A DNA stretch of 64,000 nucleotides from Gemmatimonadota bacterium (GTDB lineage Bacteria; Gemmatimonadota; Gemmatimonadetes; Longimicrobiales; Gaopeijiaceae): the NCBI GenBank assembly GCA_022827345.1, contig JAJDTB010000015.1:153237-217236 (forward strand), written 5' to 3'. Of the stretch, positions 8,890 to 26,954 are shown in pieces; position 1 is the stretch's first letter; each line of letters opens with the position of its first letter. The position numbers and the translations under genes were made by a program. The notes under the pieces are model-generated. The model did no database searches, was not told the origin of the DNA, and saw nothing but the letters and a program-made list of their open reading frames with translations.

Positions 8890-8899
8890 CACCCTGTGC

Positions 8900-8928: not shown

Positions 8929-8934
8929 ACATGC

Positions 8935-9691: not shown

Positions 9692-11485
9692 ATGAGCCCA
9701 GGGAGAGGAAGGACAGGGAGCGGCAGGAACCGCGCTTCGGGACGCATGCAATCCCTCTCGCTGCCACTGGTGCCGACGCTGTCGGCGTTTCTCCTTTCCG
9801 TGGCTTTCCCCCCGGCCGCACCCGCCCAGCAGTCCGGCGACGACGCGAACGGCACCGGCATCCCCGTCACCGACCAGCTGGTCATCGACACCTGCGACCA
9901 GTGCCACGCCGTCGACGACGACGGGATGATGACGCGCGTCTCGTACATGCGGAAGACGCCCGAGGGGTGGCAGCAGTCGATCCGCCGCATGGTGACGCTC
10001 AACGACGTCGAACTCGAGCCGGAGACCGCCCGCGATGTCGTGCGCTATCTGTCGGACCATCACGGAATCGCGCCCGAAGAGCTGCGCCCCGCCCGCTTCG
10101 AGGTCGAGCGGCGCCTGATCGACTGGTCGTACGAGGAGGCGCACGAAGGGGACGAGGACGTTGATCGCACCTGCAGCAGCTGCCACTCGATGGGCCGCGT
10201 CGTCACCCAGCGCCGCACGAAGGAAGAGTGGGACCTGCTCATGTCGATGCACCGCGGGTACTATCCGCTGTCGGACACGCAGGGATTCCGCAGGCAGGGG
10301 CCGGCGCCTCGCGGCGCAACCGATGCGCGCCATCCGATGGACAAGGCGATCGACGAGCTCTCCGGCAAGTTCCCGCTGACCACCGCCGAGTGGACATCGT
10401 GGTCGGCGACGATGCGGCCGCCGCGGATCGCCGGCACCTGGGCGCTGCGGGGCCACGACCCCGGCCGCGGCCCGATCTACGGCACGGTCGAGATCTCGCA
10501 GGGCGCCGACGAGGGCAACTTCAACACGCAGATCCGCTACGCCTACGCCCGCTCGGGCGAACAGGTCGAGCGCGACGGGCGCGCGATCGTCTACACCGGC
10601 TACCAGTGGCGCGGCCGCTCCTTCGAGGGGGCCAGCGAGGAGAGCGCGCTGCGCGAAGTGATGATGGTGGAGCGCGGCTGGAACGAGATCAACGGGCGCT
10701 GGTTCGCCGGCGACTACGACGAGTTCGGGCCCGACGTGACGCTGGTGCGCGCGGACGGCCCGGTGGTTCTGGGACTGCACCCCGGCGCGCTCCGCTCCGG
10801 CAGCAGCGCCACCGTCACCGTGCACGGCGCGAACCTCCCGACCGGGCTCGGCGCGGCCGACCTCGACCTCGGCCCCGGCGTCGAAGTCGTGAGCGTGACC
10901 GCGAGCGCCCCCGGCATGTTCGCCGCCGAGGTCACCGCCGCCGCCGATGCCGCCCCCGGAGCCCGCGACGTGTTCCTCGCGGGCCGCCCCGTGCCGGGCC
11001 ACCTGACCGTCTACGAGACCGTCGACCGCATCCTCGTCACCCCCGAAGCGGGGATGGCACGGCTCGGCGGCGGCGCCTTCCCCCGCGGCTACGCGCAGTT
11101 CGAGGCCACCGCCTTCAGCAACGGCGCCGACGGCGAGCCCGACACCGACGACGACCTCGACCTCGGTTTCGTCGACGTCGAGTGGTCGATGGAGGAGTAC
11201 TCGGCGATCTTCGACGACGACGACATCGAATACGTGGGCTCGCTCGACGACAACGGCCTCTTCCACCCGGCGCTCGACGGCCCCAACCCCGACCGCGAAG
11301 GCATGCGCAACAACGTCGGCGACGTCTGGACGGTCGCGACCTACCGCGGCCCGGACGGTACGCAAGTGCGGGGACGCGCCCACCTGATCGTCACGGTGCC
11401 GCTCTACATGCGGTGGGAGCCGTGGCGGGTCCAGATGGTCCCGGGCGGCGCGCGCAGAACCTCGGACATGGGGAGCCAGAGATGA
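9692..11485 (+). CDS. qhpA: Quinohemoprotein amine dehydrogenase alpha subunit (diheme cytochrome c)
   Basis: 597-aa secreted protein. The N-terminal signal peptide ends near PAAPAQQ (about residue 47). Two c-type haem sites follow, CDQCH (68-72) and CSSCH (161-165), in the diheme domain. The remainder is beta-rich, including an IPT/TIG-like section (GSSATVTVHGANLP) and the region ending VTVPLYMRWEPW, matching the multi-domain layout of the QHNDH alpha subunit (also called PeaA). It relays electrons from the gamma-subunit quinone to a periplasmic acceptor such as a cytochrome c or cupredoxin. ATG 9692 has an AGGAGGG ribosome site 13 nt upstream; an internal ATG at 9746 would shorten the signal n-region. 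The stop overlaps qhpD by 4 bp. Confidence 0.94.
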   Translation: MSPGRGRTGSGRNRASGRMQSLSLPLVPTLSAFLLSVAFPPAAPAQQSGDDANGTGIPVTDQLVIDTCDQCHAVDDDGMMTRVSYMRKTPEGWQQSIRRMVTLNDVELEPETARDVVRYLSDHHGIAPEELRPARFEVERRLIDWSYEEAHEGDEDVDRTCSSCHSMGRVVTQRRTKEEWDLLMSMHRGYYPLSDTQGFRRQGPAPRGATDARHPMDKAIDELSGKFPLTTAEWTSWSATMRPPRIAGTWALRGHDPGRGPIYGTVEISQGADEGNFNTQIRYAYARSGEQVERDGRAIVYTGYQWRGRSFEGASEESALREVMMVERGWNEINGRWFAGDYDEFGPDVTLVRADGPVVLGLHPGALRSGSSATVTVHGANLPTGLGAADLDLGPGVEVVSVTASAPGMFAAEVTAAADAAPGARDVFLAGRPVPGHLTVYETVDRILVTPEAGMARLGGGAFPRGYAQFEATAFSNGADGEPDTDDDLDLGFVDVEWSMEEYSAIFDDDDIEYVGSLDDNGLFHPALDGPNPDREGMRNNVGDVWTVATYRGPDGTQVRGRAHLIVTVPLYMRWEPWRVQMVPGGARRTSDMGSQR

Positions 11486-12933
11486 GCACCGCCCTCGCCA
11501 CCGACACCACCTTCCTCGCCCAGCGCGAATTCCACCCCTTCGAAGCCGGCGGCGAGACCTTCCTCTACCTGGTCCCCTCGGCCGCCGTCTTCCACCTCGA
11601 CGAAGCTTCGTTGGCCGTCCTCCGGACCCTCGAAGCGGGCGCCGCGAGCGAAAACGACATCGTCGCCGCCCTCGCCCCCCGCTTCGGCGAGGACACCGTC
11701 CGCAGGAGCCTCGCCGAACTCATGCGCGTGCAGGCCATCGGCCTCACCACGGCCCCGAAGGAGACCTTCCCGCGCGTCCTCCCCCAGGCGGATTTCCCGC
11801 TGACGACGATGGTCCTCAACGTCACCAACAAGTGCAATCTGGCGTGCACCTACTGCTACGAGTACGGCGAGGACAAGATCGTCGACACCACCTGCGACCC
11901 CGCGCCCAACTACATGAGCGAGGAGACTGCGCGGAAGAGCGTCGACTTCATGTTCGAGCAGTCCGGCGATCTGCCGGTCGCGCACCTCACCTTCTTCGGC
12001 GGCGAGACGCTCCTCAACTTCAAGGTCCTCAGGAAGACGGCGGCGTACGCCCGCGAACGCGCGAAGGAGCTGGGGAAGGACGTCGACTTCTCGCTGACCA
12101 CGAACGGCACACTGCTCCGCGACGAAGTCATCGACTGGCTGGCCGACAACCGGATCGGCGTCACGGTAAGCATCGACGGGCCGAAGGAGATGCAGAACAA
12201 GTTCCGCGTCTTCAAGAACGGGATGGGCAGCTACGATTACGCGATGCCCAAGATAAAGCGCCTGCTGGAGCGCCACCGCACCCGCCCGATCGGGGCCCGG
12301 GTGACGCTCACTCGGCAGACCCTGGACGTGTCGCGGATCTTCCACCATCTGCGCAACGAGATCGGCTTCTGGGAGGTCGGTTTCGCCCCCGTCACCACCG
12401 CCGACGGACGCGGCTACGCGATCGAGGACACCGGCTTCGACCGCATGCTCGGCCAGTTCCAGGAGCTGGCGCGGGAATTCCTGGATTTCGCAGTCGAGGA
12501 CAAGCACCACGGCTTCTCGAACGTCAAGGACACGATCGAGGAGATCCACAAGGGCGTGAGCAAAGCCTTCCCCTGCGGCGCCGGACTCGGGCTGATGGGC
12601 GTCGCCACCGACGGCGAGGTCGCGCTCTGCCACCGCTTTGCGGGCTCGGACGACCACAGCATCGGCTCGGTGGACACCGGGCTCGACCGCAAGCGCCAGT
12701 TCGAGTTCCTCGGGCACCACCACGTGGCCAACAAGACAGACTGCAGCACCTGCTGGGCACGGCCCCTCTGCGCCGGCGGATGCTATCACGAGGCGCATGT
12801 GCGCTACGGCGACACGGGCGTGGCGAACCTGCACTATTGCGACTGGATCCGGAGCTGGACCAACACCTGCCTGGAGGTCTACGGCGAGATCGCGGTCCGG
12901 AACCCGGGTTATCTGGAACAGTTCGAATCATGA
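11482..12933 (+). CDS. qhpD: Radical SAM/SPASM maturase of QHNDH gamma subunit
   Basis: 483-aa enzyme. The radical-SAM CxxxCxxC motif is CNLACTYC (Cys118, 122, 125), preceded by LTTMVLNVTNK. The glycine-rich SAM-binding FFGGE and a partial TIM barrel follow. The C-terminal SPASM/twitch region has many Cys (FPCGAG, VALCHRFAG, CSTCWARPLCAGGCYHE, LHYCDW) to hold auxiliary 4Fe-4S clusters. About 100 N-terminal residues precede the barrel and probably form the peptide-recognition domain. In the known system QhpD makes three Cys-Asp/Glu thioether cross-links in QhpC. It is coupled to qhpA by an ATGA overlap, and its substrate gene lies 66 bp downstream. The start at 11482 is clear. Confidence 0.95.
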   Translation: MSTALATDTTFLAQREFHPFEAGGETFLYLVPSAAVFHLDEASLAVLRTLEAGAASENDIVAALAPRFGEDTVRRSLAELMRVQAIGLTTAPKETFPRVLPQADFPLTTMVLNVTNKCNLACTYCYEYGEDKIVDTTCDPAPNYMSEETARKSVDFMFEQSGDLPVAHLTFFGGETLLNFKVLRKTAAYARERAKELGKDVDFSLTTNGTLLRDEVIDWLADNRIGVTVSIDGPKEMQNKFRVFKNGMGSYDYAMPKIKRLLERHRTRPIGARVTLTRQTLDVSRIFHHLRNEIGFWEVGFAPVTTADGRGYAIEDTGFDRMLGQFQELAREFLDFAVEDKHHGFSNVKDTIEEIHKGVSKAFPCGAGLGLMGVATDGEVALCHRFAGSDDHSIGSVDTGLDRKRQFEFLGHHHVANKTDCSTCWARPLCAGGCYHEAHVRYGDTGVANLHYCDWIRSWTNTCLEVYGEIAVRNPGYLEQFES

Positions 12934-12999: not shown

Positions 13000-13386
13000 A
13001 TGGACCACTTGAAAGCCATCAACCAGAAGGCACGGCGGATTCAGGAGCATGTGGCACCGGGGGTGCCCGGGGAGGTTGCCGCATCGCCGGTGGCCGCGAA
13101 CGGCGACGCCGACCTCGACGTCGTCGCGCTCGAAAGCTCCCCGGACCGGTCCGGGCCGCACATCCCGCTGGGGTGCTCGCTCGTATTCGCGCCGGGTTGG
13201 GAAGTGGACTCGACGGGCGGCACGGCCGGACTCTGTCAGCCGGTCGAGCGCGACCTCTTCGATTGCCACCTGGCCTGCTTCTGGCCCGCCCACGTCCCGG
13301 ACCAGCTGAACCACGCGCCCGACTGGACGGGCAAGTGCGCGGCCGCGCAGAAGGACTGGCGCAAGATCGACCTGATCTTCCCGTGA
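13000..13386 (+). CDS. qhpC: QHNDH gamma subunit precursor, cross-linked peptide with CTQ cofactor
   Basis: 128-aa RiPP-like precursor. A leader (MDHLKAINQKARRIQEHV and on, to about residue 52) is followed by the core beginning near PHIPLGCSLVFAPGWE. Setting Cys59 as mature Cys7 of the Paracoccus protein gives Glu68 (=16), Cys79 (=27), Asp85 (=33), Cys89 (=37), Cys93 (=41), Trp95 (=43) and Asp101 (=49). Every partner of the three thioether cross-links (7-16, 27-33, 41-49) and of the Cys37-Trp43 quinone is therefore in place, including the Asp33 catalytic base. An additional Cys113 has no known partner. A strong ribosome site (AAAGGAGG) sits upstream of ATG 13000. It carries no Sec signal, consistent with export by the dedicated ABC transporter. 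Confidence 0.96.
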   Translation: MDHLKAINQKARRIQEHVAPGVPGEVAASPVAANGDADLDVVALESSPDRSGPHIPLGCSLVFAPGWEVDSTGGTAGLCQPVERDLFDCHLACFWPAHVPDQLNHAPDWTGKCAAAQKDWRKIDLIFP

Positions 13387-14477
13387 TGCGTGCCGCGGCA
13401 TTCCTGACCGTCGGCCTGCTGGCCCTCCCCGCCCCAGCCCTCGCCCAGGGCGGCGGCAACGGCGTCATCTACATGGCGGCGTACGACCACGCGATCCATG
13501 TCATCGACGAGAACACCCTCGAGGTCGTGGACAAGATCCCGACGACGATCGGCATCCCGATCGGGCTGACGCTCTCGAAGGACCACGAGCGCATCTACGT
13601 GCGGGACGCCGAGTTCGAGGAGATCGAGATCATCGACGTGGCGAGCCGCGAGTCGATCGACAGCTTCACCCTCAGCCGCGGGAACCGGAAGGTGCGGATC
13701 TGGGGGATGGAGGTCGACCCGGCCGAGGAGTTCATCATCCTCAATACCATGCGCTACACCAAGCGCATCGACCGCTGGGAAATCGAGGAAGCGGTGCTGC
13801 TGAAGTACGACCTGGCCGAGAAACAGGTCACCGACACGATCCCGTGGCCGGAGGGCGATGGCGGTCGGAGGGCGCGGCTGATGTTCTCGCCCGAGGGGGA
13901 CTACCTGTACTTCTTCAGCCGGGGCAACATCATCGTCCTCGAGACCGAGAACTTCACGGAAGAGGACCGCTGGGACCTGTCCCGCCCGATCGAGGAGGGG
14001 CTGGGGCGCTTCAGCTTCGGCTTCCCCACGAGCCCCCACGACGACGAGGGCTTCCACACCGGCCTCTTCAACTTCACCGACCCCGTGCAGGACCGCCGCA
14101 TGATGGGAATCGCGCGCGTCAACCTGGCGGAGAGGGACGTCGACTTCTTCACCCTGGGGCCGAGCTCGCCGGTCAGCTTCCGCCTCGCGCCCGGCGGCAG
14201 GAAGGCGTACGGGCTGGTGCAGCAGATCGGCAACTACGAGTTCTGGACCTTCGACGTGGAGGGTCGGCGCGTGGAAAGCCGCCAGCGCTTCGCGGGGCGT
14301 CCGCGCATGGGCCTCGAGATCAGCTCGAACGGCGAACTGCTCTACATCTACAACGCCGGCTCGACGATCGACGTCTACGACGCCGCCACCTACGAGTTCC
14401 TGCGGACCGTGACCTTCGACGCCGACATGACCAGCTTCGTGATGATCCCGGAGGGAACCGGCCCCGGGGCGAACTGA
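13386..14477 (+). CDS. qhpB: Quinohemoprotein amine dehydrogenase beta subunit (beta-propeller)
   Basis: 363-aa protein with a clean Sec signal (MRAAAFLTVGLLALPAPALA) and then YVTN-like repeats: VIYMAAYDHAIHVIDENTLEVVDKI, LTLSKDHERIYVRDAEFEEIEIIDV, RLAPGGRKAYGL, LEISSNGELLYIYNAGSTIDVYD. This is the seven-bladed propeller expected of the QHNDH beta subunit (PeaD), which packs on the gamma subunit and forms part of the active-site cavity. The ATG shares one base with the qhpC stop (TGATG), so the two subunits are translationally coupled. Confidence 0.93.
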   Translation: MRAAAFLTVGLLALPAPALAQGGGNGVIYMAAYDHAIHVIDENTLEVVDKIPTTIGIPIGLTLSKDHERIYVRDAEFEEIEIIDVASRESIDSFTLSRGNRKVRIWGMEVDPAEEFIILNTMRYTKRIDRWEIEEAVLLKYDLAEKQVTDTIPWPEGDGGRRARLMFSPEGDYLYFFSRGNIIVLETENFTEEDRWDLSRPIEEGLGRFSFGFPTSPHDDEGFHTGLFNFTDPVQDRRMMGIARVNLAERDVDFFTLGPSSPVSFRLAPGGRKAYGLVQQIGNYEFWTFDVEGRRVESRQRFAGRPRMGLEISSNGELLYIYNAGSTIDVYDAATYEFLRTVTFDADMTSFVMIPEGTGPGAN

Positions 14478-14499: not shown

Positions 14500-16149
14500 A
14501 TGGCCATGCTGGATGCCGAACTGCGGCGCGGACTCGCCTACGTCTTCCCCTACAAGTGGCGGCTCGCGGTCATCCTGGCGCTCAACCTGGCCGGGACCGC
14601 GCTCGCGCTCTACGTCCCCTTCCTCACGCGCACCCTGGTCGACGACGCGCTGCTGGGGCAGGACCTGAGCGCGCTGGTCCGCGTCGTCGTCCTCTTCGCG
14701 GGCGTCACCGCCGCCAGCTTCGTGCTCAACTTCGCCAGCGGGATGCGCTACACGAAGGTCTCGGCCGAGATCCTCTTCGACATGCGGCTCGCGGTGTACC
14801 GGCACCTGCAGCGGCTGTCGCCCCGGTTCTTCGCACGGACTCCGCTCGGCGAGATCATGTCGCGGATCAACAACGACGTGGGCGAGATCCAGCGCGTGCT
14901 CGCGGACACGGCGCTGGCGTGGATCGGGAACGTGGCATTTCTGGTCGGGACGGTGGCCATGCTCCTCGTCCTCGACTGGCAGCTGTTCCTGGCGGCCGCG
15001 GCGCTCCTGCCGCCGGCGATCTGGGCGATCGTGCGGTACCGGCGGCGCCTCGAGGTGCGGGTGCGGGTCATGCGGGAGCGCAGCGCGAGCATCGGCACCT
15101 TCCTGATCGAGACGCTGCGCGGGGTGCGCCTGATCGCCGCGTCGAACGCCGCCGAGCGCGAGGCGGGGCGCTTCCGCGAACACAACGACTCGTTCGTGCG
15201 CTCGCTCATGTCGATGCAGCGGCTGCGCTACCTGTCGGGCGGCCTGCCGGGGCTGCTGCTGTCGGCCAGCACGGCGGTGGTCTTCCTCTACGGCGGCGCG
15301 CGCGTGATCGACGGCGTGATCACGCTGGGCACCTTCACCGCGTTCATGGCCTACCAGATGCGCCTGATCGGTCCCGTGCAGGGGCTGATGGGGCTGTACA
15401 CGGGGATCGCGACGGCGCGGGTGTCGCTGCGCCGCGTGCACGAGCTCCTCGACGAGCCGGTCGAGGTGGTCGACGCCGAGGCGCCGGCCGCGCTGGGCCG
15501 GGTGCGCGGCGAGCTGGTCTTCGAGGACGTGTCGTGCGGGCACGGGCGGGGAGGCGCGGTGCTGGAGGGGTTCGGGATGGCCGTCGCGCCGGGTGAGGTG
15601 GTGGCCCTGGTGGGCCCGTCGGGGAGCGGCAAGTCGACGGTGGCCGACCTGATCGTCCGCCATCTCGACCCGGATGCCGGGCGCGTGTTGCTGGATGGAC
15701 GGGATGTGCGGGACATCGGCCTGGCGGAGCTGCGCGCGAATGTCGCCCTCGTCGACCAGGCCGCGTTCGTGTTCAACACCTCGATCCTGGAGAACGTGCG
15801 GTACGCCCGGCCCGACGCCGACGAGGCGGCGGTGATGCGGGCCGTGGAGCGCGCGGGGCTGGCGGACTTCGTGGCGCGGCTGCCCGACGGGCTCGGGACG
15901 GTGGTGGGCGAGGATGGCGGGCAGCTTTCGGCGGGCGAGCGTCAACGCGTGGCGATCGCGCGGGCGCTGCTGGCGGATCCGGCGGTGCTGGTGCTGGACG
16001 AGGCGACGAGCGCACTCGATTCGGAAGCCCAGGCGCACGTGGTGGGCGCGTACCGCGAGGTGATGAGGGGGCGGACGACGGTGCTGATCACGCACCGGGA
16101 GGAGATGCTGCGGGGGGTGGATCGGGTGGTGGGGGTGGGTGGGGGGTAG
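14500..16149 (+). CDS. qhpF: ABC transporter (fused membrane and ATPase domains), QhpF-like peptide exporter
   Basis: 549-aa half-transporter. Six transmembrane helices of the ABC exporter fold occupy about residues 1-310 (WRLAVILALNLAGTALALYV ... FLYGGARVIDGVITLGTFTAFMAY). The ATPase follows, with Walker A GPSGSGKST, Q-loop VDQAAFVFN, signature LSAGERQRVA, Walker B VLVLDEATSALD and switch His in LITHREE. In the known qhp cluster the equivalent protein moves the processed gamma subunit to the periplasm. Its place 22 bp after qhpB supports that over a generic lipid or drug exporter. It works as a homodimer in the family. Confidence 0.88.
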   Translation: MAMLDAELRRGLAYVFPYKWRLAVILALNLAGTALALYVPFLTRTLVDDALLGQDLSALVRVVVLFAGVTAASFVLNFASGMRYTKVSAEILFDMRLAVYRHLQRLSPRFFARTPLGEIMSRINNDVGEIQRVLADTALAWIGNVAFLVGTVAMLLVLDWQLFLAAAALLPPAIWAIVRYRRRLEVRVRVMRERSASIGTFLIETLRGVRLIAASNAAEREAGRFREHNDSFVRSLMSMQRLRYLSGGLPGLLLSASTAVVFLYGGARVIDGVITLGTFTAFMAYQMRLIGPVQGLMGLYTGIATARVSLRRVHELLDEPVEVVDAEAPAALGRVRGELVFEDVSCGHGRGGAVLEGFGMAVAPGEVVALVGPSGSGKSTVADLIVRHLDPDAGRVLLDGRDVRDIGLAELRANVALVDQAAFVFNTSILENVRYARPDADEAAVMRAVERAGLADFVARLPDGLGTVVGEDGGQLSAGERQRVAIARALLADPAVLVLDEATSALDSEAQAHVVGAYREVMRGRTTVLITHREEMLRGVDRVVGVGGG

Positions 16150-16416: not shown

Positions 16417-16422
16417 CGGTGA

Positions 16423-16875
16423 TCAGCGGACCGGCAGGTCTTCCGGCGGCTCCTCCATGTCCGAATCCGCTGTCGCCGTCCGCTCGCGTCTCCAGCGGTA
16501 CAGCGCCCAGCAAAGGCTCACCGCCCCGGCGTAGAGGGCGGCATTCCAGATTGGAATCGGGCCCACGACAGCATCACGAAACATCATGAATACCAGGACG
16601 GCGAGCGCAATCAGAAGCGCCGACAGGGCGAGCTGCCTCCAACTCGTCGCCGTGTCGGACTCGCGCGCCAACGCGGCAATCCGGGTGAGGACGCGTTCGT
16701 CCGGATCACTCAGATCGCGCACGGTCTTCTCCTCCGTATCGAGCAGAAGGCGGGCGCCCTCCTGAATCTGCCAGTCGAGCCAGCATTCCTCGCACGTCTG
16801 GAGGTGCTCGACCACCGCCGGGTCGCTTCGGGAAGTGCCCGCGCGCCGCAGGGCGGCCAGGTCAGGACAGTTCAT
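16423..16875 (-). CDS. Anti-sigma factor with zinc-finger-like N-terminus
   Basis: 150 aa. The N-terminal part has Cys3 in MNCPDLAALRRAG and VEHLQTCEECWLDWQI, with His and two Cys spaced HxxxCxxC as in zinc-binding anti-sigma (ZAS-like) domains. Two hydrophobic helices follow (about 80-97, ALSALLIALAVLVFMMF, and 107-125). The start overlaps the sigma-factor stop by 14 bp. In the family, the cytoplasmic N-terminus holds the partner sigma until a membrane or periplasmic signal releases it. Confidence 0.8.
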   Translation of the reverse strand: MNCPDLAALRRAGTSRSDPAVVEHLQTCEECWLDWQIQEGARLLLDTEEKTVRDLSDPDERVLTRIAALARESDTATSWRQLALSALLIALAVLVFMMFRDAVVGPIPIWNAALYAGAVSLCWALYRWRRERTATADSDMEEPPEDLPVR

Positions 16876-17443
16876 CTTTCGAACCCTTGAGCAAAGTGCG
16901 GAGTTTGATCCTGGCGTGTCGGAGGTGGGAACGTATCGTCGCCGGGCTTACCCCGAGCTTTCTCGCGGCCGCATTGGGACTGTTGCCCTTGAGGTGGACG
17001 ACGATGAAGGCCTCGGCCTGGCGGGCGGGAAGCTTCGCCAGGGCGTGCTCCAGCCTATCCAGGAAGCGCCGATAGCTCAACAGCCTCCCCGGGTCGGTGA
17101 GGAGTTCCCTCGAGTCCTGCACGGGGGCGACGTGAACCGAGTACCGATCCATTGCGGACGCCCGTGCCAGCTTACTGGCGCGCCAATTGCGGGCATGATA
17201 ATGGGTCAGCCTGGCTATCCATCCCGACAGAGATCCACGGTGCTCGTAGCGACGTCTCTGCTTCCAGATGCGGACGCAAACCTCCTGGTAGAGGTCGTCC
17301 CGTTCATCGCCGTCCCCAGCGTACGACGCCGTGATGCTCCTGATGAGGTGGCCCTGGGACTCCAGCAACGCCCGAAACGCCTCCGGATCGCCTCGGAGAA
17401 AAGCCTCGATATCAATTCCCGCGGCCCCCTCGGTGTCGTTCAT
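16862..17443 (-). CDS. ECF-type RNA polymerase sigma factor
   Basis: 193 aa. Region 2 is seen as DDLYQEVCVRIWKQRRRYEHRGSLSGWIARLTHYHARNW in consecutive parts (-10 recognition and melting). Region 4 is LPARQAEAFIVVHLKGNSPN followed by AARKLGVSPATIRSHLRHAR (the -35 binding HTH). It starts at 17443, with the stop of the upstream membrane-protein gene overlapping it (ATGA), and it ends 14 bp inside the anti-sigma gene. It therefore forms a tightly coupled sigma/anti-sigma unit with a membrane protein that may be the sensor or first target. Confidence 0.9.
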   Translation of the reverse strand: MNDTEGAAGIDIEAFLRGDPEAFRALLESQGHLIRSITASYAGDGDERDDLYQEVCVRIWKQRRRYEHRGSLSGWIARLTHYHARNWRASKLARASAMDRYSVHVAPVQDSRELLTDPGRLLSYRRFLDRLEHALAKLPARQAEAFIVVHLKGNSPNAAARKLGVSPATIRSHLRHARIKLRTLLKGSKDELS

Positions 17444-18243
17444 CCATACCGCCGACTGCGGGTGAGATACACCAGCAGCAGGCCTTCGGCCAATGGGACG
17501 GACAGCGGCAGCCAGGCGGCCGGCACGCCCGGGCGAAATTCCCCGGTGTCCAGAAACGGCTGTATGGGTGCTGCAAGCACAACGGCGGCGAAGAAGGCAA
17601 TTCCCCCCAGAATGCCGAACGCCAGCAGCGCGGTCCTGCGCACCCCCCGTTTGAGATCTACGGTCAACTCCGCGGCAAGCAGGCCGAGGAATACGTTGAC
17701 AAGGCTGAAGATGGCCATGACGATCGGAAAGTGCAGACGCCACCGGAGAATGTTCGGGGGATGCTGTTCGGGATTCCCGACCCTCAGGCTGTACTGGTCC
17801 GGTGGGTTCGCCTCAACAAAGTCGAGATTCCGCAGAATCCCCACAGGTGTGTCAGCGCCAAACCGCCGAGCGTCTTCGGTCGTGCTTCCCAGACTGGCAC
17901 TATACCGGTGCCCGACGATCGGATCTAGCCAGGCTTCCATGACGTAGGCAACCGACCCCAGAGCAAGGCCGACCACGAGCGTACATCGGAGGGCCCGGCG
18001 AGAATGTCCCAGCTTCCGGGCGACGACCAGGCCGGCGGCGAACAGGGCAAACGGAAGCACGGTAGAGAAATCGCTCACGGTGACCCACAGCCACCGGAGG
18101 AACGAGCCGGACCATGCATACGGAGGCCAACGGAATTGAAGAAGGGGTGAGGCCGCCACGAACAACAAGCACCAGGGAAGTATGGCTCTGGCGAGTGCGG
18201 CGCACAGCCTTTGGTCCTTTTGCCTACCTCGAATGATCGTCAC
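17440..18243 (-). CDS. Polytopic membrane protein, first gene of sigma-factor operon
   Basis: 267 aa with about five hydrophobic helices (AILPWCLLFVAASPLLQF, VLPFALFAAGLVVA, CTLVVGLALGSVAYV, PIVMAIFSLVNVFLGLLAA, AFGILGGIAFFAAVVLAAP). A soluble stretch of about 45 residues lies between the third and fourth (GHRYSASLGSTTEDARRFGAD). This layout faintly recalls Lpt-type permeases but is too short for them, so no family is assigned. It is coupled to the sigma gene by a 4-bp overlap. Confidence 0.65.
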   Translation of the reverse strand: MTIIRGRQKDQRLCAALARAILPWCLLFVAASPLLQFRWPPYAWSGSFLRWLWVTVSDFSTVLPFALFAAGLVVARKLGHSRRALRCTLVVGLALGSVAYVMEAWLDPIVGHRYSASLGSTTEDARRFGADTPVGILRNLDFVEANPPDQYSLRVGNPEQHPPNILRWRLHFPIVMAIFSLVNVFLGLLAAELTVDLKRGVRRTALLAFGILGGIAFFAAVVLAAPIQPFLDTGEFRPGVPAAWLPLSVPLAEGLLLVYLTRSRRYG

Positions 18244-18352: not shown

Positions 18353-18442
18353 CTTCCCCGGTGGGCGCTGTTGTAAGGGAGATCCGTGCATCCAAACCAC
18401 CGGCTGCCGGCAGTCCCGACCTGCCTCGAAAGGAAGATGGCG

Positions 18443-19033
18443 ATGAACATTTGCAAAGGCCTGGGGCTCGCAATGGTCGTCGCCTCCGCGCCTCTGCAAC
18501 TGACCGCCCAGACCGAGACCATCGACCTCTCCGGTCACACAAGCCGTGTCTGCCTTTTGCACGCGGACGGCAGGCAGCTGAACCCCGTGGCGAGCTACCA
18601 CGTGGAAACCGAAGGATGGGATTCACCGGCGCGATTCAGTCACACGCGCGCCTCTGCACCTCGCGCTTCCGGGGCATGGACATCCGTGACTGACTCCATG
18701 GCCGTGCTGGTGAACGAAGTCACCGGAATGCTCACCCGCCTCACGGTCCGTAACGGCTCGCTGGTCGCGGATACATTCGACCTCGGGATCCGCGGCCGCC
18801 ACCCGTCGGCCGACCGCCCGTCGGAGATCAGGGTTGTCGTCGGCAGGAACGACGGGATCTGGATGCGCAACAATATCGATGGCCAGCACGAGGTGTGGAG
18901 CATCATCCAGCCGGGGGCAAACCGTAGATGGCGCATCGCGCTGGCGGCCTCGATGCCGGTATCGCCATTCGAGGTGACTACTGCGGCCATGAGTGAATCT
19001 GGTGGCGCAGAATGTAAGGTCAACATACCATAA
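18443..19033 (+). CDS. Internally deleted beta-propeller paralogue (decayed copy)
   Basis: 196-aa product with a signal peptide (MNICKGLGLAMVVASAPLQLTAQ) and then TIDLSGHT, which aligns with TLDLSGQA at the start of the next gene's mature protein. Immediately after, SRVCLLHADGRQLNPVASYH aligns with SHVLLFHPDGLWVDTLASYH, which lies about 130 residues further into that paralogue. The first blades, including the GPGEF signature, are missing, and the reading frame is kept. Later parts still align (MAVLVNEVTGMLTRLTVRNG versus LAVLADGIAGTLTRLRIRGG). It is most likely a non-functional relic of a tandem duplication with an in-frame deletion. ATG 18443 gives better spacing from GAAAGGA than ATG 18437. 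Confidence 0.7.
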   Translation: MNICKGLGLAMVVASAPLQLTAQTETIDLSGHTSRVCLLHADGRQLNPVASYHVETEGWDSPARFSHTRASAPRASGAWTSVTDSMAVLVNEVTGMLTRLTVRNGSLVADTFDLGIRGRHPSADRPSEIRVVVGRNDGIWMRNNIDGQHEVWSIIQPGANRRWRIALAASMPVSPFEVTTAAMSESGGAECKVNIP

Positions 19034-19052
19034 TGTAATGTTTGCATTACAT
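19033..19052. repeat. AT-rich palindrome over a gene start
   Basis: ATGTAATG-TTTG-CATTACAT, two perfect 8-bp arms, in a GC-rich background. It overlaps the start codon (19038) of the beta-propeller gene and matches the sites at 25017 and 37301. Probable operator. Confidence 0.6.
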
Positions 19053-20150
19053 CGCTTGAGCGTCGCCCTCGTCATCGGCCTCGCGCCGATCCCGGTCGCG
19101 GCCCAGATGGACACGCTGGACCTCTCCGGACAGGCTGGCGAGACCGTAATCCCTCCCGAGTTCGCCGGAGGTTTCTTCGCCCGGATCGGAGGGATGGTCG
19201 TCGACGAACGGGGAATCTGGGTCGTCGACCGCGGTCACACGACCGTTCTCCGCTTCGACCCCGATGGCGTCCTGAGGGCGCAATACGGCCGCGAAGGGAG
19301 TGGGCCCGGTGAATTTCTCCTGCCATCGCGCCCCAGGGTGGACTCGATAGTGACGGTGACCGACGTGCGACTGGGGCGGATCGTGCGTTTCAGCCTGGAG
19401 GGCGAACACATCGAGACCACCCGGCAGGACCGTCGGCCCGTCACCTCGAGCGGGATGGAGGTTCCCCTCGGAGAAGTGCTTCCCCTCTCCGACGGCTACC
19501 TGATCAGTGCCACGGCGGGATGGTATTCCTTCGGGGCGTCGGCCCCCAGCGATCCTTTCAGCCACGTCCTGCTCTTCCATCCGGACGGCTTGTGGGTGGA
19601 CACGCTCGCCAGCTACCACATCGATTCCGGCAGGTGGGATGCGCCCGGTCGGCTTGGCGGCAACTTCGAGACCGGCCTGGGCAGATCGGGGTCATTCGCG
19701 GTGGTGGGCGATTCCCTGGCGGTGCTGGCCGACGGGATCGCCGGGACTCTGACTCGCCTTCGCATCCGCGGCGGAGTGCCCGTGGCCGACACGATTGACA
19801 TGGGGATGCGGGCGCGTCCGGTGAGCGACCGCGACATGGACGAGTTCGAGGCGCGCCTTCGTGAGGACAAGCCGGACCTGCCGCGGCGAATCGAGTTCGA
19901 AATGGCGGACGGATGGTCGGTCGCGACCAGTATCCTGCCGGGCGAGAATGGTGAGTTCTGGCTGAGCCAGGCAGTGGAGGGCGAACAGCAGGAGTGGGTG
20001 GTCGTGAAACCGGGATCGACTCGGAAGCGGCGCGTACTGCTCCCGGAGCGATTCTCTCTCAGGGCGATCCACGATGGGTACCTGTATGGGGTCGGCACGG
20101 ACGCGCTCGACATCCCGAGCGTGGTAAGGATCGCGGATCCGCGGGGGTAG
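19038..20150 (+). CDS. Secreted six-bladed beta-propeller protein
   Basis: 370 aa with a Sec signal (MFALHRLSVALVIGLAPIPVAAQ). Propeller blades start at FFARIGGMVVDERGIWVVDRG and include the group's hallmark YGREGSGPGEFLLPS, then GRIVRFSLEGEH, VLLFHPDG and NGEFWLS. This family is predicted to fold as a six-bladed propeller in the periplasm or on the outer membrane; no catalytic residues or known ligand can be read out. The start codon lies inside an AT-rich palindrome. The truncated copy immediately upstream is its paralogue and the next gene is another family member. Confidence 0.8.
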   Translation: MFALHRLSVALVIGLAPIPVAAQMDTLDLSGQAGETVIPPEFAGGFFARIGGMVVDERGIWVVDRGHTTVLRFDPDGVLRAQYGREGSGPGEFLLPSRPRVDSIVTVTDVRLGRIVRFSLEGEHIETTRQDRRPVTSSGMEVPLGEVLPLSDGYLISATAGWYSFGASAPSDPFSHVLLFHPDGLWVDTLASYHIDSGRWDAPGRLGGNFETGLGRSGSFAVVGDSLAVLADGIAGTLTRLRIRGGVPVADTIDMGMRARPVSDRDMDEFEARLREDKPDLPRRIEFEMADGWSVATSILPGENGEFWLSQAVEGEQQEWVVVKPGSTRKRRVLLPERFSLRAIHDGYLYGVGTDALDIPSVVRIADPRG

Positions 20151-20183
20151 GTTGTCGTAGACATTCACACTTGGAGGAACAAG

Positions 20184-21446
20184 ATGGACGGATCCAGCAA
20201 TCCAGTGACAGCCGTCGTGCTAGCACTCGTCGCGGCAACGCTTTTGGCCGCGGGCCCGGCGGCCGCCCAGGAAGTCATCGAATTGCCCGCGGAGGACCGT
20301 CGCCTGGAAGCCAACCTCGAAGAGGTGTACCGCGTAGGCGCGATGACAGGCGAGGACTGGGAACAGTTCGGAAACGTGCGGCGGGTAGGGTTCGATGCCG
20401 AAGGGAAACTGTACGTCTTCGACAATCAGGCTGACCGGATCCACGTGGTGGGCGCGGATGGCGAATACGTGCGTACGCTGGGTCGCTCGGGCGAGGGGCC
20501 TGGCGAATTCCGAAGCCCGGATGGGCTCGCGGTCATGCGCGACGGACGGGTGGTGATCGCCGATCTTGGCCACCGTGCGTACCACATCTTCGATGCCGAC
20601 GGCGAGCTGGAGCGCATGGTGGGGATGGCATTGGAAGGGGGCGACCTGCGGATCACGGATATCTATCCGGACCCCGGGGGCGAGGCCATCTTCACCGCCG
20701 TGGGGGCACAAATGCTATCGGGAAGCATGGGGGGAACGGGAGCACGCATCGCCCCGCATACGTCACGGGCGGTGGAGCGACTCGTGCTCATCGGTGAGGT
20801 TGCCACCAAGGACACCGTCGCCGAAGGCTGGCTGCCGAGCGGAGGAGACAACACGTCCATCCCTGTCGATGGGCAGACGAACTACCGCGTGCCACGCCCC
20901 GGCGTTTTCGGGCCGGACATTCTGCCTGGCGTGCTCCCCGATGGAAGCGTGGCTTTCTCCGACTCGTCGGCCTACACGATCAAGATTGCGCGACCGGGCG
21001 CGGGGGTCTGGAGGATCCTGACGCGGCCGCTCCGACCGATTCCCGTTACAAACCGGGTAATCGAAGACGAAAAGGAGCGTCGACTCGAGGAACTCGAAGA
21101 GAGGGGCGACAGGGGCGGGATCGTGATAAACGGCGTGCGCCAGGCGCCCAACCTGGAGCGCCTGCGCCGGCGAATCGAAGAGTTGGAGTTTTTCGATGAG
21201 GTGTCGATCGTTCGCGACCTGAAGACGGGTTGGTCCGGTGAAATCTGGGTGCAGCGGCACGGGCCGGAGCCCGGGGACGACGACGGTCCCATCGATGTAC
21301 TGACCATGGACGGCGAATACCTCGGCACCTATCCGGCGGGCGCGATCCAGATGCCGGCCGCCTTCGGGCCGGACGGTCTGGTCGCGTTCATCGAGACCGA
21401 CGAGCTGGATGTGGAGACGGTGGTGGTGAGGCGGCTTGGGGGGTAG
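20184..21446 (+). CDS. Secreted six-bladed beta-propeller protein
   Basis: 420 aa with ribosome site GGAGGAAC before ATG 20184. The signal peptide ([20 protein letters not shown]) is followed by blades [80 protein letters not shown], ending [25 protein letters not shown]. An Arg/Glu-rich linker ([19 protein letters not shown]) near residue 295 interrupts the propeller, as in many relatives. It lies 33 bp after the previous paralogue. Probably periplasmic; function unknown. Confidence 0.82.
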
Positions 21447-21482
21447 AGGGCACCCCGGGAGAGTCGAGCCCACACACTAACG

Positions 21483-23240
21483 ATGAACTTGTCCATGGCC
21501 AGAACCACACCGCCAACGTTATTGGCCCTTCTGTGGCTCTTTGTCGCCCTCCCTCAATCAGCCCATGCCCAACTGGTCCGTGGCAGGATTGTCGACGCAG
21601 GAGGCGGCAATGGGATCGGCGGCGCGATGGTGAGCCTCATCGACCAGAGCGGCCGGGAGATCGAGCAGGTGCTCACGCGATCCCCCCGCGGCCTCTTTCA
21701 GCTTCGGGCACCCTACCCCGGCCAATACAGCATCAGGGCCGACCGGATCGGCTACGCCTCCACCTCGTCGGAGTTCTTCGGCCTGACCGCCACGGACACG
21801 ATGACAATCGAATTGGTCGCGGGGATCGAGCCGGTATCCCTGCGGGGGATTGAAGCGGAGGCGGATCGTCGGTGCCGTGTCCGTCCGCAGGAAGGCCTGG
21901 CCGTTGCCCGAGCGTGGGAGGAGGCGCGCAAAGCCCTGGAGGCCGCTTTGTGGACCCGGGAGCGGGGACTGTACCGCTACGAGATGCTCCGGATTCAGCG
22001 CCGGCTGGACGAAAGGGGCCGCAGGGTAGAGCAGGAAGACCGCTCCTACACCGAGGTGTCGGCCCCGGCCCCCTTCACTTCTCGTCCCGCCGACTCGCTG
22101 TTGGCCAGCGGATTCGTGCGTTTGTCGCCTTCGGGCTCCGAGTTCTGGGCGCCGGACGCGGACGTCCTCCTCTCCGACTTCTTTCTGGACACGCATTGTT
22201 TTCGGATCGGGGAAAGCGAGGGCGGACCAGGAGAACCGGTGGGCCTGGAGTTTGAGCCCGCGCCCGGTCGCCAGGTGCCTGAAATCGCGGGTAGGATGTC
22301 GCTTCATCCGGCGACGGCCCAGCTGCAACGCCTGGATTTCCGGTACGTCAACCTCAACGTCCACCCGCGGCTCATGCGGGCCTCCCCCGGAGGCAGGGTG
22401 GATTTCAGGACGCTGCCGAACGGCACATGGATCGTGCCGTCGTGGCATCTGCGGATGTTCCGCCCCGGTGAAACGGTCGACGCCTTCACCGGCCGTCCTG
22501 CGGCCTCCCTGCAGGCGGTCATCATGGAGCACGGCGAGGTGCTGCGCGTTCACGATGAAGACGGCATCGTCTTTGAGGGTGACCGCGGCCGGCGCATCTA
22601 GGGCACCGTCCTCGACACTCTGCAGGTCGGCCTGCCGGGCGCCCGCGTTTTCGTCAACGGCGAGGGAACCGAGGTTGTCACGGACGCCGCCGGTCGTTTC
22701 GAGCTCGATCACCTGGGCCCCTACACCTACTCGGTCTACTACACGCATCCCTATCTCGAGCGCCTGTGGTTCCAGCCCACGCCGGTCGATGTCGATGTGG
22801 GGTCTGAATCCTCCGATCCGGTTCGGGTCGACTTCCGGACGCCGCCGATCGGAGACGTGTTGGACGAGATCTGCCGCGGTGTCAGGCGGTCGCAGGCAAC
22901 CGGCGATGGTCTCCTCACCGTTTTCGTGGCCGATGCGCAGGGGGATCCCGTTGACGGGGCGACCGTCCTGGCGATAGCGGCGTCTCGCGGCGCGCAAGGA
23001 AACCGGGCGGGCGGGCCGAGGATTCAGGGACAGACCAACGCTTCGGGATTGTTTCGAATGTGCTGGCTGCCCATGAGAACTCGCCTGGAGGTGGTGGCGC
23101 TGACAAGCGACGAAGAACTTGATCGTCACGCGTTCGAAGACGCGTCCACCCTCGCCCATCTCTTCCCTGCCAGAGTTCGGGAGATCACAATCGCTGCCGA
23201 CGCTCCACACAGATCCCTCCTTCTGCGAGTCGAGCGATGA
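21483..23240 (+). pseudogene. CarboxypepD_reg-domain secreted protein split by in-frame TAG
   Basis: One frame runs from ATG 21483 to the TGA at 23240 except for a TAG at 22599-22601. The first part (372 aa) has a signal peptide (LLALLWLFVALPQSAHA), a regulatory-like domain (LVRGRIVDAGGGNGIGGAMV ... GYASTSS) and a conserved body (LLSDFFLDTHCFRIGE). After the stop, GTVLDTLQVGLPGARVFVNG continues for 213 codons and aligns with GTVLGEVSGGVAGDGIAVVG in the intact next gene. The downstream portion keeps its frame and its ATGA overlap with that gene. It is therefore a recent nonsense mutation (or a sequencing error), not two genes. The truncated N-terminal product may still be made. Confidence 0.8.
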
Positions 23241-24943
23241 GTGCAGCGCGTCTTGGCGAACGGTCGCGGCTGTTGACCGCATTCATCCTGGGTGCGGCGA
23301 GCGCGGTGTTCGCTCAGGAAGGCGCCGCACAGGTCATCGACGGGGTCGTCGTGGACTCGGAATCGCGGATTCCGGTGGCCGGAGCGCTTGTCTCGCTGGT
23401 CGACGGCAGCGGCCGCGACATCCAGCGCTTCATGGTCGATGCCGCCGGCTCGTTCCGCTTCCTGGTAGCGGCGGTGCCGGGCAGCTACAGTCTGCGCGCG
23501 GAGCGTCTCGGGATGACCACCAGGACGGTGGACAGTTTCGATCTGGAACCGGCCGACACGGTCACGATTCGGATCGCACTGAGTCATCGTCCGATTGCAC
23601 TGGCGGGCATCCAGGCGTCGGGAGAACGAAGATGCGAGCTGGAGGCTGCACTCGGCGAGACGACCCACCAGGTGTGGGAAAGGGCCCGAACGACGCTGCG
23701 GGCGGTAGGCACCTCGGATTCGGTTGGCCGGTACGTCTATGATCTCGAAAGGCACGTCCGGGAACTTGAACCACGGTCCCTGGAGATTCGCAGTGAGACG
23801 CGCACGCATGCGCGGTCGACCGACGAGCGGCCGATCAAGAGCCATCCCGTGGAAATCCTCGTCGCCGACGGCTGGGCTGTCGGTGACGAAGCTGGCGGAT
23901 ATCGCTTCTTTGCGCCGGATGCGCACACCCTTCTTTCCGACCTCTTCCTCGCCACCCACTGCCTGCGGCTCCGTCCCCGCGACGAGTCTCGCCCCGGGTT
24001 GGTGGGACTGGAGTTTCGGCCCATCGGCCTCCGTTCGAACCACACCGACATCGAAGGCGTCCTCTGGCTGTCCCGCGAAACCGGCGAGCTCCTCTGGCTT
24101 GAATTCGATTACCGCGGCCTGCCCGGGTTGGCGGCGGACCACCACAGCGACCAGGTCGGTGGCCGTGTGGAGTTCCTGGGCCTGCCCGACGGCGGATGGA
24201 TCGTCTCGGAGTGGTTCATCCGCATGCCGATGATGGTCGAAGAGCGTCACGACTTCCTGGGTGGCCGGCGCGCAAGGCTGGAGGGAATCGCGGAGGAGGG
24301 GGGCCGGGTCGTGCGGGCGGTGCGGCGGGGTACCGGACAGGTGGCCTATGCCGAGCTTGGCGGGACGGTGCTGGGCGAGGTCTCAGGAGGGGTCGCCGGG
24401 GATGGAATCGCCGTTGTAGGTGCCGGAGTCCAGACCGCTCTGGACGAAAGTGGGGGCTTCGTCTTTGACGGGCTCCCGGAGGGAAGCTATCGACTTGCAT
24501 ACATCCGTCCTTACCTGATGGGTGTGGATCGCGAATACGCGGTGGCCGATGCAAGGGTCTTGCCGGGCGATACAACGACGCTGCGGGTCACGGCGCCTCC
24601 CGTGCACGACGTGCTTGCCGCGACGTGCCAGGTGGAAGAGTGGAGCCGAGGGACGGGAATCCTGGTGGGAGATGTGTCGGATGGGCAGGGTCGCGCGTTG
24701 GAGGAAATCAACGTGGTGGCGGAATGGGTAGCGGTGCGCAACCTTTCCGGCCGAATGATCGGCCAGGCCCGAACGGCCGAGGCCGTGACCAATCGGTTGG
24801 GCGAGTTCCGCATCTGCGGCGTCCCTGTGGACCGTTACACGATTACCGTGACCGCGGGCACCGGCGCGGAACGTGTGATGACGGAAGTGGTGCTGTCGCC
24901 GGACGAGCCGGTTGGCGGTGTGTCGCTCAGGCTCGCGAGGTAG
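23237..24943 (+). CDS. Secreted CarboxypepD_reg-domain protein
   Basis: 568 aa. The signal peptide (LLTAFILGAASAVFAQEGAAQ) is followed by a carboxypeptidase-regulatory-like domain (VIDGVVVDSESRIPVAGALV ... FRFLVAAVPGSYSLRAERLG). The central region includes LLSDLFLATHCLRLRPRDES, GLEFRPIG and LPDGGWIVSEWFIRMP. Two further Ig-like regulatory modules follow (GGTVLGEVSGG ... FVFDGLPEGSYRL, and GTGILVGDVSDGQGRALEEI ... FRICGVPVDRYTITVTAG). This is the intact paralogue of the preceding gene, coupled to it by ATGA. No catalytic motif is visible; such proteins are thought to act at the cell surface. Exact role unknown. Confidence 0.75.
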   Translation: MSAARLGERSRLLTAFILGAASAVFAQEGAAQVIDGVVVDSESRIPVAGALVSLVDGSGRDIQRFMVDAAGSFRFLVAAVPGSYSLRAERLGMTTRTVDSFDLEPADTVTIRIALSHRPIALAGIQASGERRCELEAALGETTHQVWERARTTLRAVGTSDSVGRYVYDLERHVRELEPRSLEIRSETRTHARSTDERPIKSHPVEILVADGWAVGDEAGGYRFFAPDAHTLLSDLFLATHCLRLRPRDESRPGLVGLEFRPIGLRSNHTDIEGVLWLSRETGELLWLEFDYRGLPGLAADHHSDQVGGRVEFLGLPDGGWIVSEWFIRMPMMVEERHDFLGGRRARLEGIAEEGGRVVRAVRRGTGQVAYAELGGTVLGEVSGGVAGDGIAVVGAGVQTALDESGGFVFDGLPEGSYRLAYIRPYLMGVDREYAVADARVLPGDTTTLRVTAPPVHDVLAATCQVEEWSRGTGILVGDVSDGQGRALEEINVVAEWVAVRNLSGRMIGQARTAEAVTNRLGEFRICGVPVDRYTITVTAGTGAERVMTEVVLSPDEPVGGVSLRLAR

Positions 24944-25016: not shown

Positions 25017-25036
25017 ATGTAATGTATACATGACAT
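25017..25036. repeat. AT-rich near-palindrome over a gene start
   Basis: ATGTAATG-TATA-CATGACAT with one arm mismatch. It covers the ATG at 25030 of a beta-propeller gene. The 19-mer from 25018 differs from the left half of the 37301 palindrome only at the two central positions. Probable operator of the same family. Confidence 0.55.
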
Positions 25037-26169
25037 TTTGTAATGGCGCCATGACACCATACATACCAACTTACCAACGGTCCCCAAGCAGACCTACCCT
25101 GTCCAGATCCGGGCCCCGCGCGGCCACGGCACTCCTGACCTTGGCCCTCCTGGCCAGCATCGCCTGTGACGATGGCACCTCAAAGGACCCCACCATCGTC
25201 CCGACCGGAATGCCTTTCGACGAAATGTTCCAGCTTGTGCAGGTGCTCACACCGGAGCAGACCCCGGAGTCTCCGATCGCACTGATCTCGGGCGCGAGCT
25301 GGGACGGTGGCAGCATAGCGATCGCCGACGGGTCGGAGGGCAACGCAAAGCTGTTCGACAGCGACGGATCACTCATCGCCGCCATGGGCCGATCCGGCGA
25401 GGGACCGGGGGAATTCAGAAGCGCGCGCCACCCTCAACTCCTGGACGGACAGCTGTACATGGCCGACGGACAACTGGGCCGCGTGTCCGTGTGGACGGGC
25501 GGCGGGGAGCTGGAGCGCGAGATCGACTTCCGCTTTGGTTTCGTTTCGGATTTCGCTGTACTTCCGGATGGCCGGCTGGTGTTCGCCGGACTCGTGTTCG
25601 CGGACTCCGCAGCGGCGATGGGCGTGTACGCCAACGACGGGACTCCTCTGATGCACGGCCTCTACACTACCGACGTCCTCCCGGCGGGCGCCGACCCCAG
25701 TCTTCCGTGGGGGAACTTGCGGCAGAACTTGTTCGCCGTCAGCAACGACACGGCCTGGGCGGTCTCGACGATTTCGGACAGCATCTGGGCAGTGCCGTTG
25801 AACCGCGACGTGCTTGAGCCCGAGTCCTACCGGCTCGCCATTCCCGGCTACGTGGCCCCAGCCGCTCCGCAGAACCCGCTGCGATCGATCGAGGACCTGA
25901 TGGCGTGGGGCAATTCGTTTCACGGCGCGGCACGGCCCGCGGCAAGCTCCGAACTCCTTGCCATTCCGTTTGTGCAGGGCGTGCTGAATTACGGTGATCC
26001 CACCATCCTGGTATTGAGAGATGAAAACGGTGACTGGTACGCGCTCAGTGATCCGCCGCCGGTGATCGCGGCACATGCAAACCAGCTGCTCGTCATCCAC
26101 AATCCGCTGGGAGACCCAGTCGAACTTGCCGTCTACGAGGCGCACCCCCCGCACCAGGCGAACGAATGA
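25030..26169 (+). CDS. Six-bladed beta-propeller lipoprotein upstream of qhpE
   Basis: 379 aa from ATG 25030 (ATG 25051 is also possible). The lipoprotein signal is AATALLTLALLASIAC with lipobox Cys, then DDGTSKDPT. Blades include [74 protein letters not shown] and LVIHNPLGDPVELAVYE. It ends with an ATGA overlap with qhpE, so the protease is translated from the same mRNA. Whether the propeller takes part in amine oxidation is unknown, but the coupling makes co-expression with qhpE likely. Confidence 0.8.
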   Translation: MTFCNGAMTPYIPTYQRSPSRPTLSRSGPRAATALLTLALLASIACDDGTSKDPTIVPTGMPFDEMFQLVQVLTPEQTPESPIALISGASWDGGSIAIADGSEGNAKLFDSDGSLIAAMGRSGEGPGEFRSARHPQLLDGQLYMADGQLGRVSVWTGGGELEREIDFRFGFVSDFAVLPDGRLVFAGLVFADSAAAMGVYANDGTPLMHGLYTTDVLPAGADPSLPWGNLRQNLFAVSNDTAWAVSTISDSIWAVPLNRDVLEPESYRLAIPGYVAPAAPQNPLRSIEDLMAWGNSFHGAARPAASSELLAIPFVQGVLNYGDPTILVLRDENGDWYALSDPPPVIAAHANQLLVIHNPLGDPVELAVYEAHPPHQANE

Positions 26170-26954
26170 GCCCGCGCGAGGAACCCGCATCCCGAGGTGG
26201 AGGTCGGCCGGGAGCAGGGACTGGAGACGCCCCGGCTGCCGCGCGCGTGTGCGTCGACTCGCCGCCGCTGCTGCCGCTGACCGGCCGGGGCGTCACCGTC
26301 GCCGTCATCGACAGCGGCGTCAATCCCGGTCATCCGCATGTTGCCGGTGTCGCCGGGGGCGTGCGCATCGCCCTCTCCGGCGATGTCGAAGACGACTACA
26401 TCGACCGCCTCGGGCACGGCACCGCGGTTTTCGCGGCCATCCAGGAGAAGGCGCCGGGCGCGGCCATCTTCGCGGTGCGCGTCTTCGAGGACCGGCTGCG
26501 GACGAGTTCGCGTGCGCTGGTGGCCGCGATCGATTGGGCGGCGGCAAACGGCATCCGCGTGGTCAACCTGAGCCTGGGGACACTCCGCGAAGAGCACGCC
26601 GAGGCGCTGGGCAGGGCGGTGGCGCGGCTTGCCGGCGCGGGGGGTGTGGTGGTGGCGGCGGCCGAGGACGAGGGGCAGCTGTGGTGGCCGGGGTCGCTGC
26701 CGTCGGCGGTGGGGGTGGTGGCGCACGCCGGCTGCCCGCGCGGGTGCGTCGAGGTGCGGGGGGCGGCCGACGGCGACGCGGTGGTCGCCGCTTCACCCTA
26801 TCCGAGGTCGATTCCGGGAGTGCCGGTGGAGATGAATCTGAGCGGAATCAGCTTCGCCGTGGCGAACGTGACCGGGGTGCTCGCGAGGGTGCTGGAAGGG
26901 TGCGAAGCGCCGGTGACCGCGGGCGCGTGCATCGAGTTGCTTCGGGCCCGCTGA
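26166..26954 (+). CDS. qhpE: Subtilisin-like serine protease, QhpE-like leader peptidase
   Basis: 262 aa with no signal peptide, fitting a cytoplasmic subtilase. Catalytic Asp in VTVAVIDSGVN, His in DRLGHGTAVFAAI and Ser in LSGISFAVANVTGVLAR (the GTSMA position reads GISFA). It is short, lacking a prodomain, as is QhpE. In the characterised QHNDH pathway QhpE removes the leader from the cross-linked gamma subunit before export. No other subtilase is seen near qhpADCBF, so this gene, about 10 kb downstream, is the best candidate for that step. The assignment rests on fold, size, lack of a signal and context. It is coupled by ATGA to a beta-propeller lipoprotein gene. Confidence 0.8.
   Translation: MSPREEPASRGGGRPGAGTGDAPAAARVCVDSPPLLPLTGRGVTVAVIDSGVNPGHPHVAGVAGGVRIALSGDVEDDYIDRLGHGTAVFAAIQEKAPGAAIFAVRVFEDRLRTSSRALVAAIDWAAANGIRVVNLSLGTLREEHAEALGRAVARLAGAGGVVVAAAEDEGQLWWPGSLPSAVGVVAHAGCPRGCVEVRGAADGDAVVAASPYPRSIPGVPVEMNLSGISFAVANVTGVLARVLEGCEAPVTAGACIELLRAR

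Follow-up and report, generated by a model that had tools for sequence, protein, structure and literature searches.

The gene at 26166-26954 of the window, the 64,000-nucleotide stretch of Gemmatimonadota DNA that we analysed, encodes a subtilase that is very likely QhpE, judging from profile matches, alignments and gene order. Our reading is that it is the qhp operon's own QhpE, that insertion of a block of genes stretched the operon, and that qhpE is transcribed together with a propeller gene, P25, from a separate control region; we put the probability of this reading at about 0.87. In the characterised systems, QhpE removes a 28-residue leader from cross-linked QhpC, after which QhpF carries out export, and QhpE is a suicidal, single-turnover enzyme, a property that the authors tied to co-expression from one operon (PMC7876137). 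By analogy with characterised QhpE, the window's protein would act in the cytoplasm, removing the QhpC leader after QhpD has formed the thioether cross-links, and leader removal would let QhpF export the mature gamma subunit. Separate control of qhpE matters because QhpE is described as single-turnover, and a genus in which qhpC and qhpE have been separated repeatedly, with qhpE under purifying selection, offers a natural test of the rule that links single turnover to a shared operon.

The full set of qhpA, B, C, D, E, F and G lies within the window (Table 1); QhpB and QhpG score under their profile cut-offs but are in place. The C-terminal 72 residues of QhpC align to solved gamma chains, and alignment with the mature chains gives a leader of about 52 residues, compared with 28 in the characterised Paracoccus/Pseudomonas system. 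The leader is longer because a variable linker grew between two conserved leader motifs; variable Ala/Pro-rich linkers at this place lengthen the QhpC leaders in the window's genus. The PIN toxin gene between qhpG and qhpA occupies the same place in three relatives (G076, G093 and G106).

Table 1. Features of the stretched qhp locus (positions counted from the first letter of the window)
Feature	Position	Strand	Basis or remark
qhpG, flavin monooxygenase	7363..8889	+	228 bits, cut-off 240
FitA-like antitoxin and PIN toxin pair, between qhpG and qhpA	8896..9569	+	Pfam
qhpA, alpha subunit	9746..11485	+	profile matches
qhpD, radical SAM maturase	11482..12933	+	profile match
qhpC, gamma subunit, QhpE substrate	13000..13386	+	profile match and alignment
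qhpB, divergent beta subunit	13386..14477	+	44 bits, cut-off 223
qhpF, ABC exporter	14500..16149	+	profile matches
Three genes: putative anti-sigma/membrane protein, ECF sigma factor, membrane protein	16423..18243	-	start of inserted block
Rest of inserted block	18386..24943	+	gene map, Pfam
Truncated propeller (in block)	18386-19030	+	
Two propellers (in block)	19038-20150, 20184-21446	+	
CarboxypepD_reg gene with in-frame stop (in block)	21483-23240	+	
CarboxypepD_reg gene (in block)	23237-24943	+	
Copy of the ~40-bp compound palindrome, candidate operator/promoter of the P25-qhpE unit	25018..25058		core TGACATTTTGTAA at 25031-25043
P25, 6-bladed propeller protein, putative lipoprotein	25051..26169	+	DUF5128, signal-like N-terminus
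qhpE (very likely), subtilisin-like leader protease	26166..26954	+	ORF, NF049966, Pfam, alignments, model

The initial annotation described a signal-less subtilase of 262 aa, and such an ORF is indeed present: the protein is small (235-262 aa), has neither signal nor pro-peptide and, read from its sequence, lacks a hydrophobic N-terminus. Its start is uncertain, with ATG 26166 giving 262 aa and GTG 26247 giving 235 aa. In G076, the nearest relative, no ATG is available, and the GTG that matches 26247 is one of two candidate starts. The protein matches Pfam Peptidase_S8 (2.5e-15) and the QhpE model NF049966 (155.9 bits, 9.2e-46), E-values that place its identity as a subtilase far beyond chance. 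The NF049966 score falls 9 bits short of the curated cut-off of 165, which is normal within the lineage: the qhpE that overlaps qhpF in G117, a genome of the same genus, scores 156.0, and the operonic qhpE of Leisingera scores 153.1, both under 165 too.

Alignment with subtilisin BPN' placed the catalytic triad at D49, H84 and S229, and the Asp-His-Ser triad is invariant in 19 QhpE proteins, including those of Paracoccus, Cupriavidus and Leisingera. The same alignment showed that the subtilisin oxyanion residue N155 is replaced by D168. This Asn is also missing from all reference QhpE proteins compared (Paracoccus, Pseudomonas, Cupriavidus, Leisingera and Novosphingobium); as a mark of QhpE it is an observation of the present analysis, not a published criterion. 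An AlphaFold model of the protein has a subtilisin fold (pLDDT 82.5, with the first ~23 residues disordered), and the top Foldseek matches were subtilisin BPN' variants (1e-10). The window's protein thus resembles the Paracoccus/Pseudomonas QhpE (NF049966, PMC7876137) in its subtilisin fold, its triad, its lack of a signal sequence, its missing oxyanion Asn and its place in a qhp locus. It is 31-32% identical to the Cupriavidus and Paracoccus proteins, with a longer N-terminus.

We then measured how far qhpE lies from its operon. It lies 10.0 kb past the end of qhpF (stop at 16149), in agreement with the displacement of about 10 kb initially claimed, and 12.8 kb past that of qhpC (stop at 13386), whereas in Paracoccus (order A-D-C-B-E-F) it is about 1 kb from its substrate gene. 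Relatives were compared in up to 146 genomes of the order, and distances were taken only where qhpC and qhpE share a contig. The gap between the two genes is 2.9-5.7 kb in 27 of 28 genomes of the family's other genera, and at least 10 kb (10 to 29 kb, window included) in 9 of 12 genomes of the window's genus; the short gaps in this genus are those of G117 (2.8 kb), G081 (3.3 kb) and G069 (4.8 kb). Compact genomes, among them G065, G074, G117 and G119, carry an uninterrupted G-A-D-C-B-F-E run, and qhpG-A-D-C-B-F-E is, by this comparison, taken as the family's ancestral order. G117 has the window's gene set and the same downstream genes (cytochrome b, Rieske, AAA regulator), but lacks the block. 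In the window's clade, the same qhp genes stand on both sides of a block between qhpF and qhpE, and in a second clade (G002, G070, G091 and G109) the insertions lie mostly between B and F and sometimes also between D and C. These gene maps indicate that the operon was opened by insertions and that qhpE did not jump away, with the possible exception of G072 in another genus. Displacement of qhpE by a hypervariable block in the window's genus is well supported by the comparison: the block entered the operon mostly between qhpF and qhpE and left qhpE at the far edge of the stretched locus. The single gap outside the 2.9-5.7 kb range in the other genera is that of G072 (L113), in which a single contig carries qhpE and the qhp operon ~495 kb apart, apparently as the result of a true relocation.

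The blocks differ between genomes. They hold 6-bladed propellers, CarboxypepD_reg proteins, an ECF sigma cassette, toxin-antitoxin pairs (ParDE, VapBC, nucleotidyltransferase/HEPN) and transposases of IS3/IS21 type, and the comparison shows the qhp operon serving as a landing zone where transposases, propeller genes and toxin-antitoxin pairs settle. In the relatives, small genes of the toxin-antitoxin and transposase kinds were assigned by eye from their sequences; in the window, Pfam confirmed the FitA-like/PIN pair and the ECF sigma factor. A search of the block edges in the window revealed neither direct repeats nor target-site duplications. The CarboxypepD_reg gene at 21483-23240 is broken by its in-frame stop and is a continuous single gene in G076; the propeller at 18386-19030, which lacks its N-terminal half in G076 as well (omega 0.59), is a probable remnant.

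The initial annotation said that a processing step under another promoter than its substrate would be unusual, which overstates the case, since qhp genes are published as varying in arrangement, order and strand (PMC7876137) and qhpE is also separated in Cupriavidus basilensis; a displaced qhpE is a variant of a known state. On Cupriavidus pRK1-2, as in the window, qhpE (in a run F-E-G) stands apart from qhpA-D-C-B, with an opposite-strand gene between. There ~6 kb part qhpE from qhpC, taken up by qhpG, a single aldehyde dehydrogenase gene, qhpA and qhpD alone; neither propellers nor mobile genes lie in this interval. Leisingera has A-D-C-B-F followed by a 227-aa QhpE. The closest plasmid-borne sequences that we found, on plasmid NZ_CP141945.1 of Novosphingobium sp. 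RL4 (QhpD 50% and QhpE 48% relative to the window), have the order A-D-C-B-F-E, with qhpF and qhpE adjacent and, unlike the window, no large inserted block. What sets the window's genus apart is the large scale on which insertions have occurred, their recurrence, and a candidate for separate control of qhpE.

If the protein at 26166-26954 were an unrelated or RiPP-type subtilase, the true QhpE would be located elsewhere; its score under the NF049966 cut-off fits this, as do order-mates that have no qhpC but whose QhpE-like subtilases reach similar scores, up to 156 bits. We searched the whole genome with the NF049966 profile for a better-matching QhpE, and 26166-26954 was the one single QhpE-type match; the two other S8 matches fall within long ORFs (873 and 1259 aa). 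Furthermore, the two order-mate proteins that could be read in frame, L133 and L134, differ from QhpE in retaining the oxyanion Asn and in carrying a GTS serine motif, which makes them a different kind of subtilase. In relatives the orthologous gene follows qhpF directly, and the remaining qhp genes are all within the window. The unrelated-subtilase reading is thus largely refuted and, in our estimate, very improbable, and the suggestion that this subtilase is the QhpC leader protease very likely holds, on its being the genome's only QhpE-type match, its invariant triad and its orthologs behind qhpF. Alternatively, an error in assembling a metagenome bin could have produced the separation; the assembly behind the window consists of 75 contigs, and the relatives are metagenome-assembled. 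G076, however, has the same arrangement with ordered orthologs, and separation recurs in G002 and G017, both single-contig genomes, as well as in several further bins, so that mis-assembly is hardly credible. As for the order-mate subtilases themselves, L133 (in G042) and L134 (in G003) are QhpE-like proteins with an intact oxyanion Asn in genomes without qhpC, and L134, adjoined by ABC-transporter-like genes, possibly belongs to another peptide-maturation system.

We next considered the gene in front of qhpE. The P25 stop overlaps the qhpE start by ATGA at 26166-26169, as had been noted, and the upstream ORF is, as claimed, a propeller protein (DUF5128) with a signal-like N-terminus. Its lipobox, S-I-A-C, is plausible but atypical, and its status as a lipoprotein is putative. 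Its AlphaFold model (pLDDT 45.9) was too poor for use. The propeller start had been placed at 25030, inside an AT-rich palindrome. The palindrome, ATGTATACAT at 25022-25031, is there; the start is not, since the alignment with the closest relative begins at ATG 25051, the conserved start, and the palindrome therefore lies just upstream of it.

The pairing of P25 with qhpE is not conserved, and from the comparison of loci the tie looks accidental. Of the loci examined, just those of G076 (84%) and G106 (68%) carry a P25 ortholog. In G076 a 342-aa CarboxypepD_reg gene sits between the P25 ortholog and qhpE, and in G106 the ortholog stands behind qhpF and a different propeller overlaps qhpE. Checking synteny in relatives, as had been proposed, thus showed that the displaced qhpE recurs in the genus and that its adjacency to P25 is not kept. 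The partner changes from genome to genome: a propeller 77% identical to the window's P20 overlaps qhpE by GTGA in G017 and G106, ParE does so by ATGA in G093 and G062, and qhpF does so by ATGA in G065 and G074 and by 11 nt in G117. Short start-stop overlaps with changing partners argue for ordinary compact packing, in which qhpE would overlap whichever gene happens to stand before it. The overlap may give translational coupling between P25 and qhpE, without implying a shared function.

The palindrome ahead of P25 belongs to a repeated element. The strict 13-bp core TKACAWWWTGTMA occurs 62 times in the genome and its reversed control once. It is present in 7-138 copies in 22 of 23 genomes of the genus (0 in G081), and in 0-5 copies in all others; the ~40-bp element is frequent only in the window's genus. 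A matrix built from 16 sites, 15 from elsewhere in the genome plus the window's own, carries information over ~40 bp (AATGTAATGTnnACATTACAWWATGTAATGTnnACATTACATT). It finds five sites in the window (19026, 25031, 37314, 51904 and 59432), where a reversed control finds none. We examined 48 genomic sites: none lies inside a called gene (random expectation 78%) and for 30 of them a called start follows within 250 bp (random 24%). By eye, the genes behind element copies resemble those for gyrA, a DnaE-type polymerase, exonuclease III, an HtrA-like protein and secreted enzymes. A literature search on the palindrome core returned unrelated work only, and the comparison exposes what is apparently an undescribed, genus-specific putative regulatory element.

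Around the qhp loci, the copy at P25 lies ahead of and across ATG 25051, inside a ~80-bp stretch that is missing from G076; there the element is absent directly before the P25 gene. P19 has a copy before it both in the window and in G076. Further copies were located in the interval from qhpF to qhpE in G049, ahead of qhpF-qhpE in G002 and, in G109, ahead of a propeller that stands two genes upstream of qhpE. In none of the genomes scanned did a copy turn up ahead of qhpG, A, D or C. Matrix sites are dense (about 1 per 13 kb in the window), so that one site inside a 10-kb block is not significant alone.

The initial annotation had also suggested that the processing step is under a different promoter from its substrate, perhaps with a function shared with the propeller. 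The first part stands in a qualified form. Reading the whole locus as one long transcript from the qhp promoter, with qhpE expressed by read-through, agrees with the + strand of every gene from 18386 to qhpE, and a scan of 16000-27500 gave no convincing terminator or sigma-70 promoter, an uninformative result from a scan that suits other organisms. Against this reading, three minus-strand genes at 16423-18243 part qhpF from the + run that ends in qhpE, in the window as in G076, which makes a single transcript unlikely, and candidate control elements lie at 19026 and 25031; we consider one long transcript rather unlikely. Probably, then, qhpE is not on the same transcript as qhpC, and separate control of qhpE is plausible. 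On this anatomy, a control region at ~25018-25058 would drive qhpE together with P25, independently of the qhpG-A-D-C-B-F promoter. The second part did not hold up. The ATGA overlap and the propeller of another type that overlaps qhpE by GTGA could suggest that propeller and protease work together, for example with the propeller as a QHNDH chaperone or subunit, and that the overlap sets their ratio. Besides the changing partners and the two lone P25 orthologs, neither of which adjoins qhpE, compact genomes have no propeller beside qhpE, and the propeller is exported whereas the protease is cytoplasmic. With 63 matches to the propeller family across the window's genome, propellers beside qhpE need no special explanation, and we regard such a partnership as quite improbable. 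Turning back to separate control of qhpE, a more far-reaching suggestion, which we consider rather unlikely, is that in this genus QhpE has left its substrate's regulon and come under a genus-specific regulator that binds the ~40-bp palindrome, so that the final cytoplasmic step in maturing quinohemoprotein amine dehydrogenase would be switched separately, or else that QhpE has become a multiple-turnover enzyme there.

Finally, we looked at the evolution of the displaced gene. qhpE is under purifying selection (omega 0.14-0.48) and changes faster than most other qhp genes; omega showed no clear difference between compact and displaced qhpE pairs. The main groupings of genomes agree between the QhpE and QhpD trees, and replacement of qhpE by horizontal transfer is for this reason not supported. 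G017 carries, beside an IS3-type element (L090, 17140-17370), a decayed and frameshifted 5' remnant of a second qhpE that is most like, and groups with, the qhpE of G026. In most genomes of the genus the qhp locus adjoins a gene for an AAA-ATPase regulator-like protein (1106 aa, minus strand, 31180-34500 in the window), which in another genus (G032) stands directly upstream of qhpA; by its position this protein is a candidate qhp regulator. The qhp locus of the window is immediately preceded by two tRNA genes on the minus strand (6906-7056).
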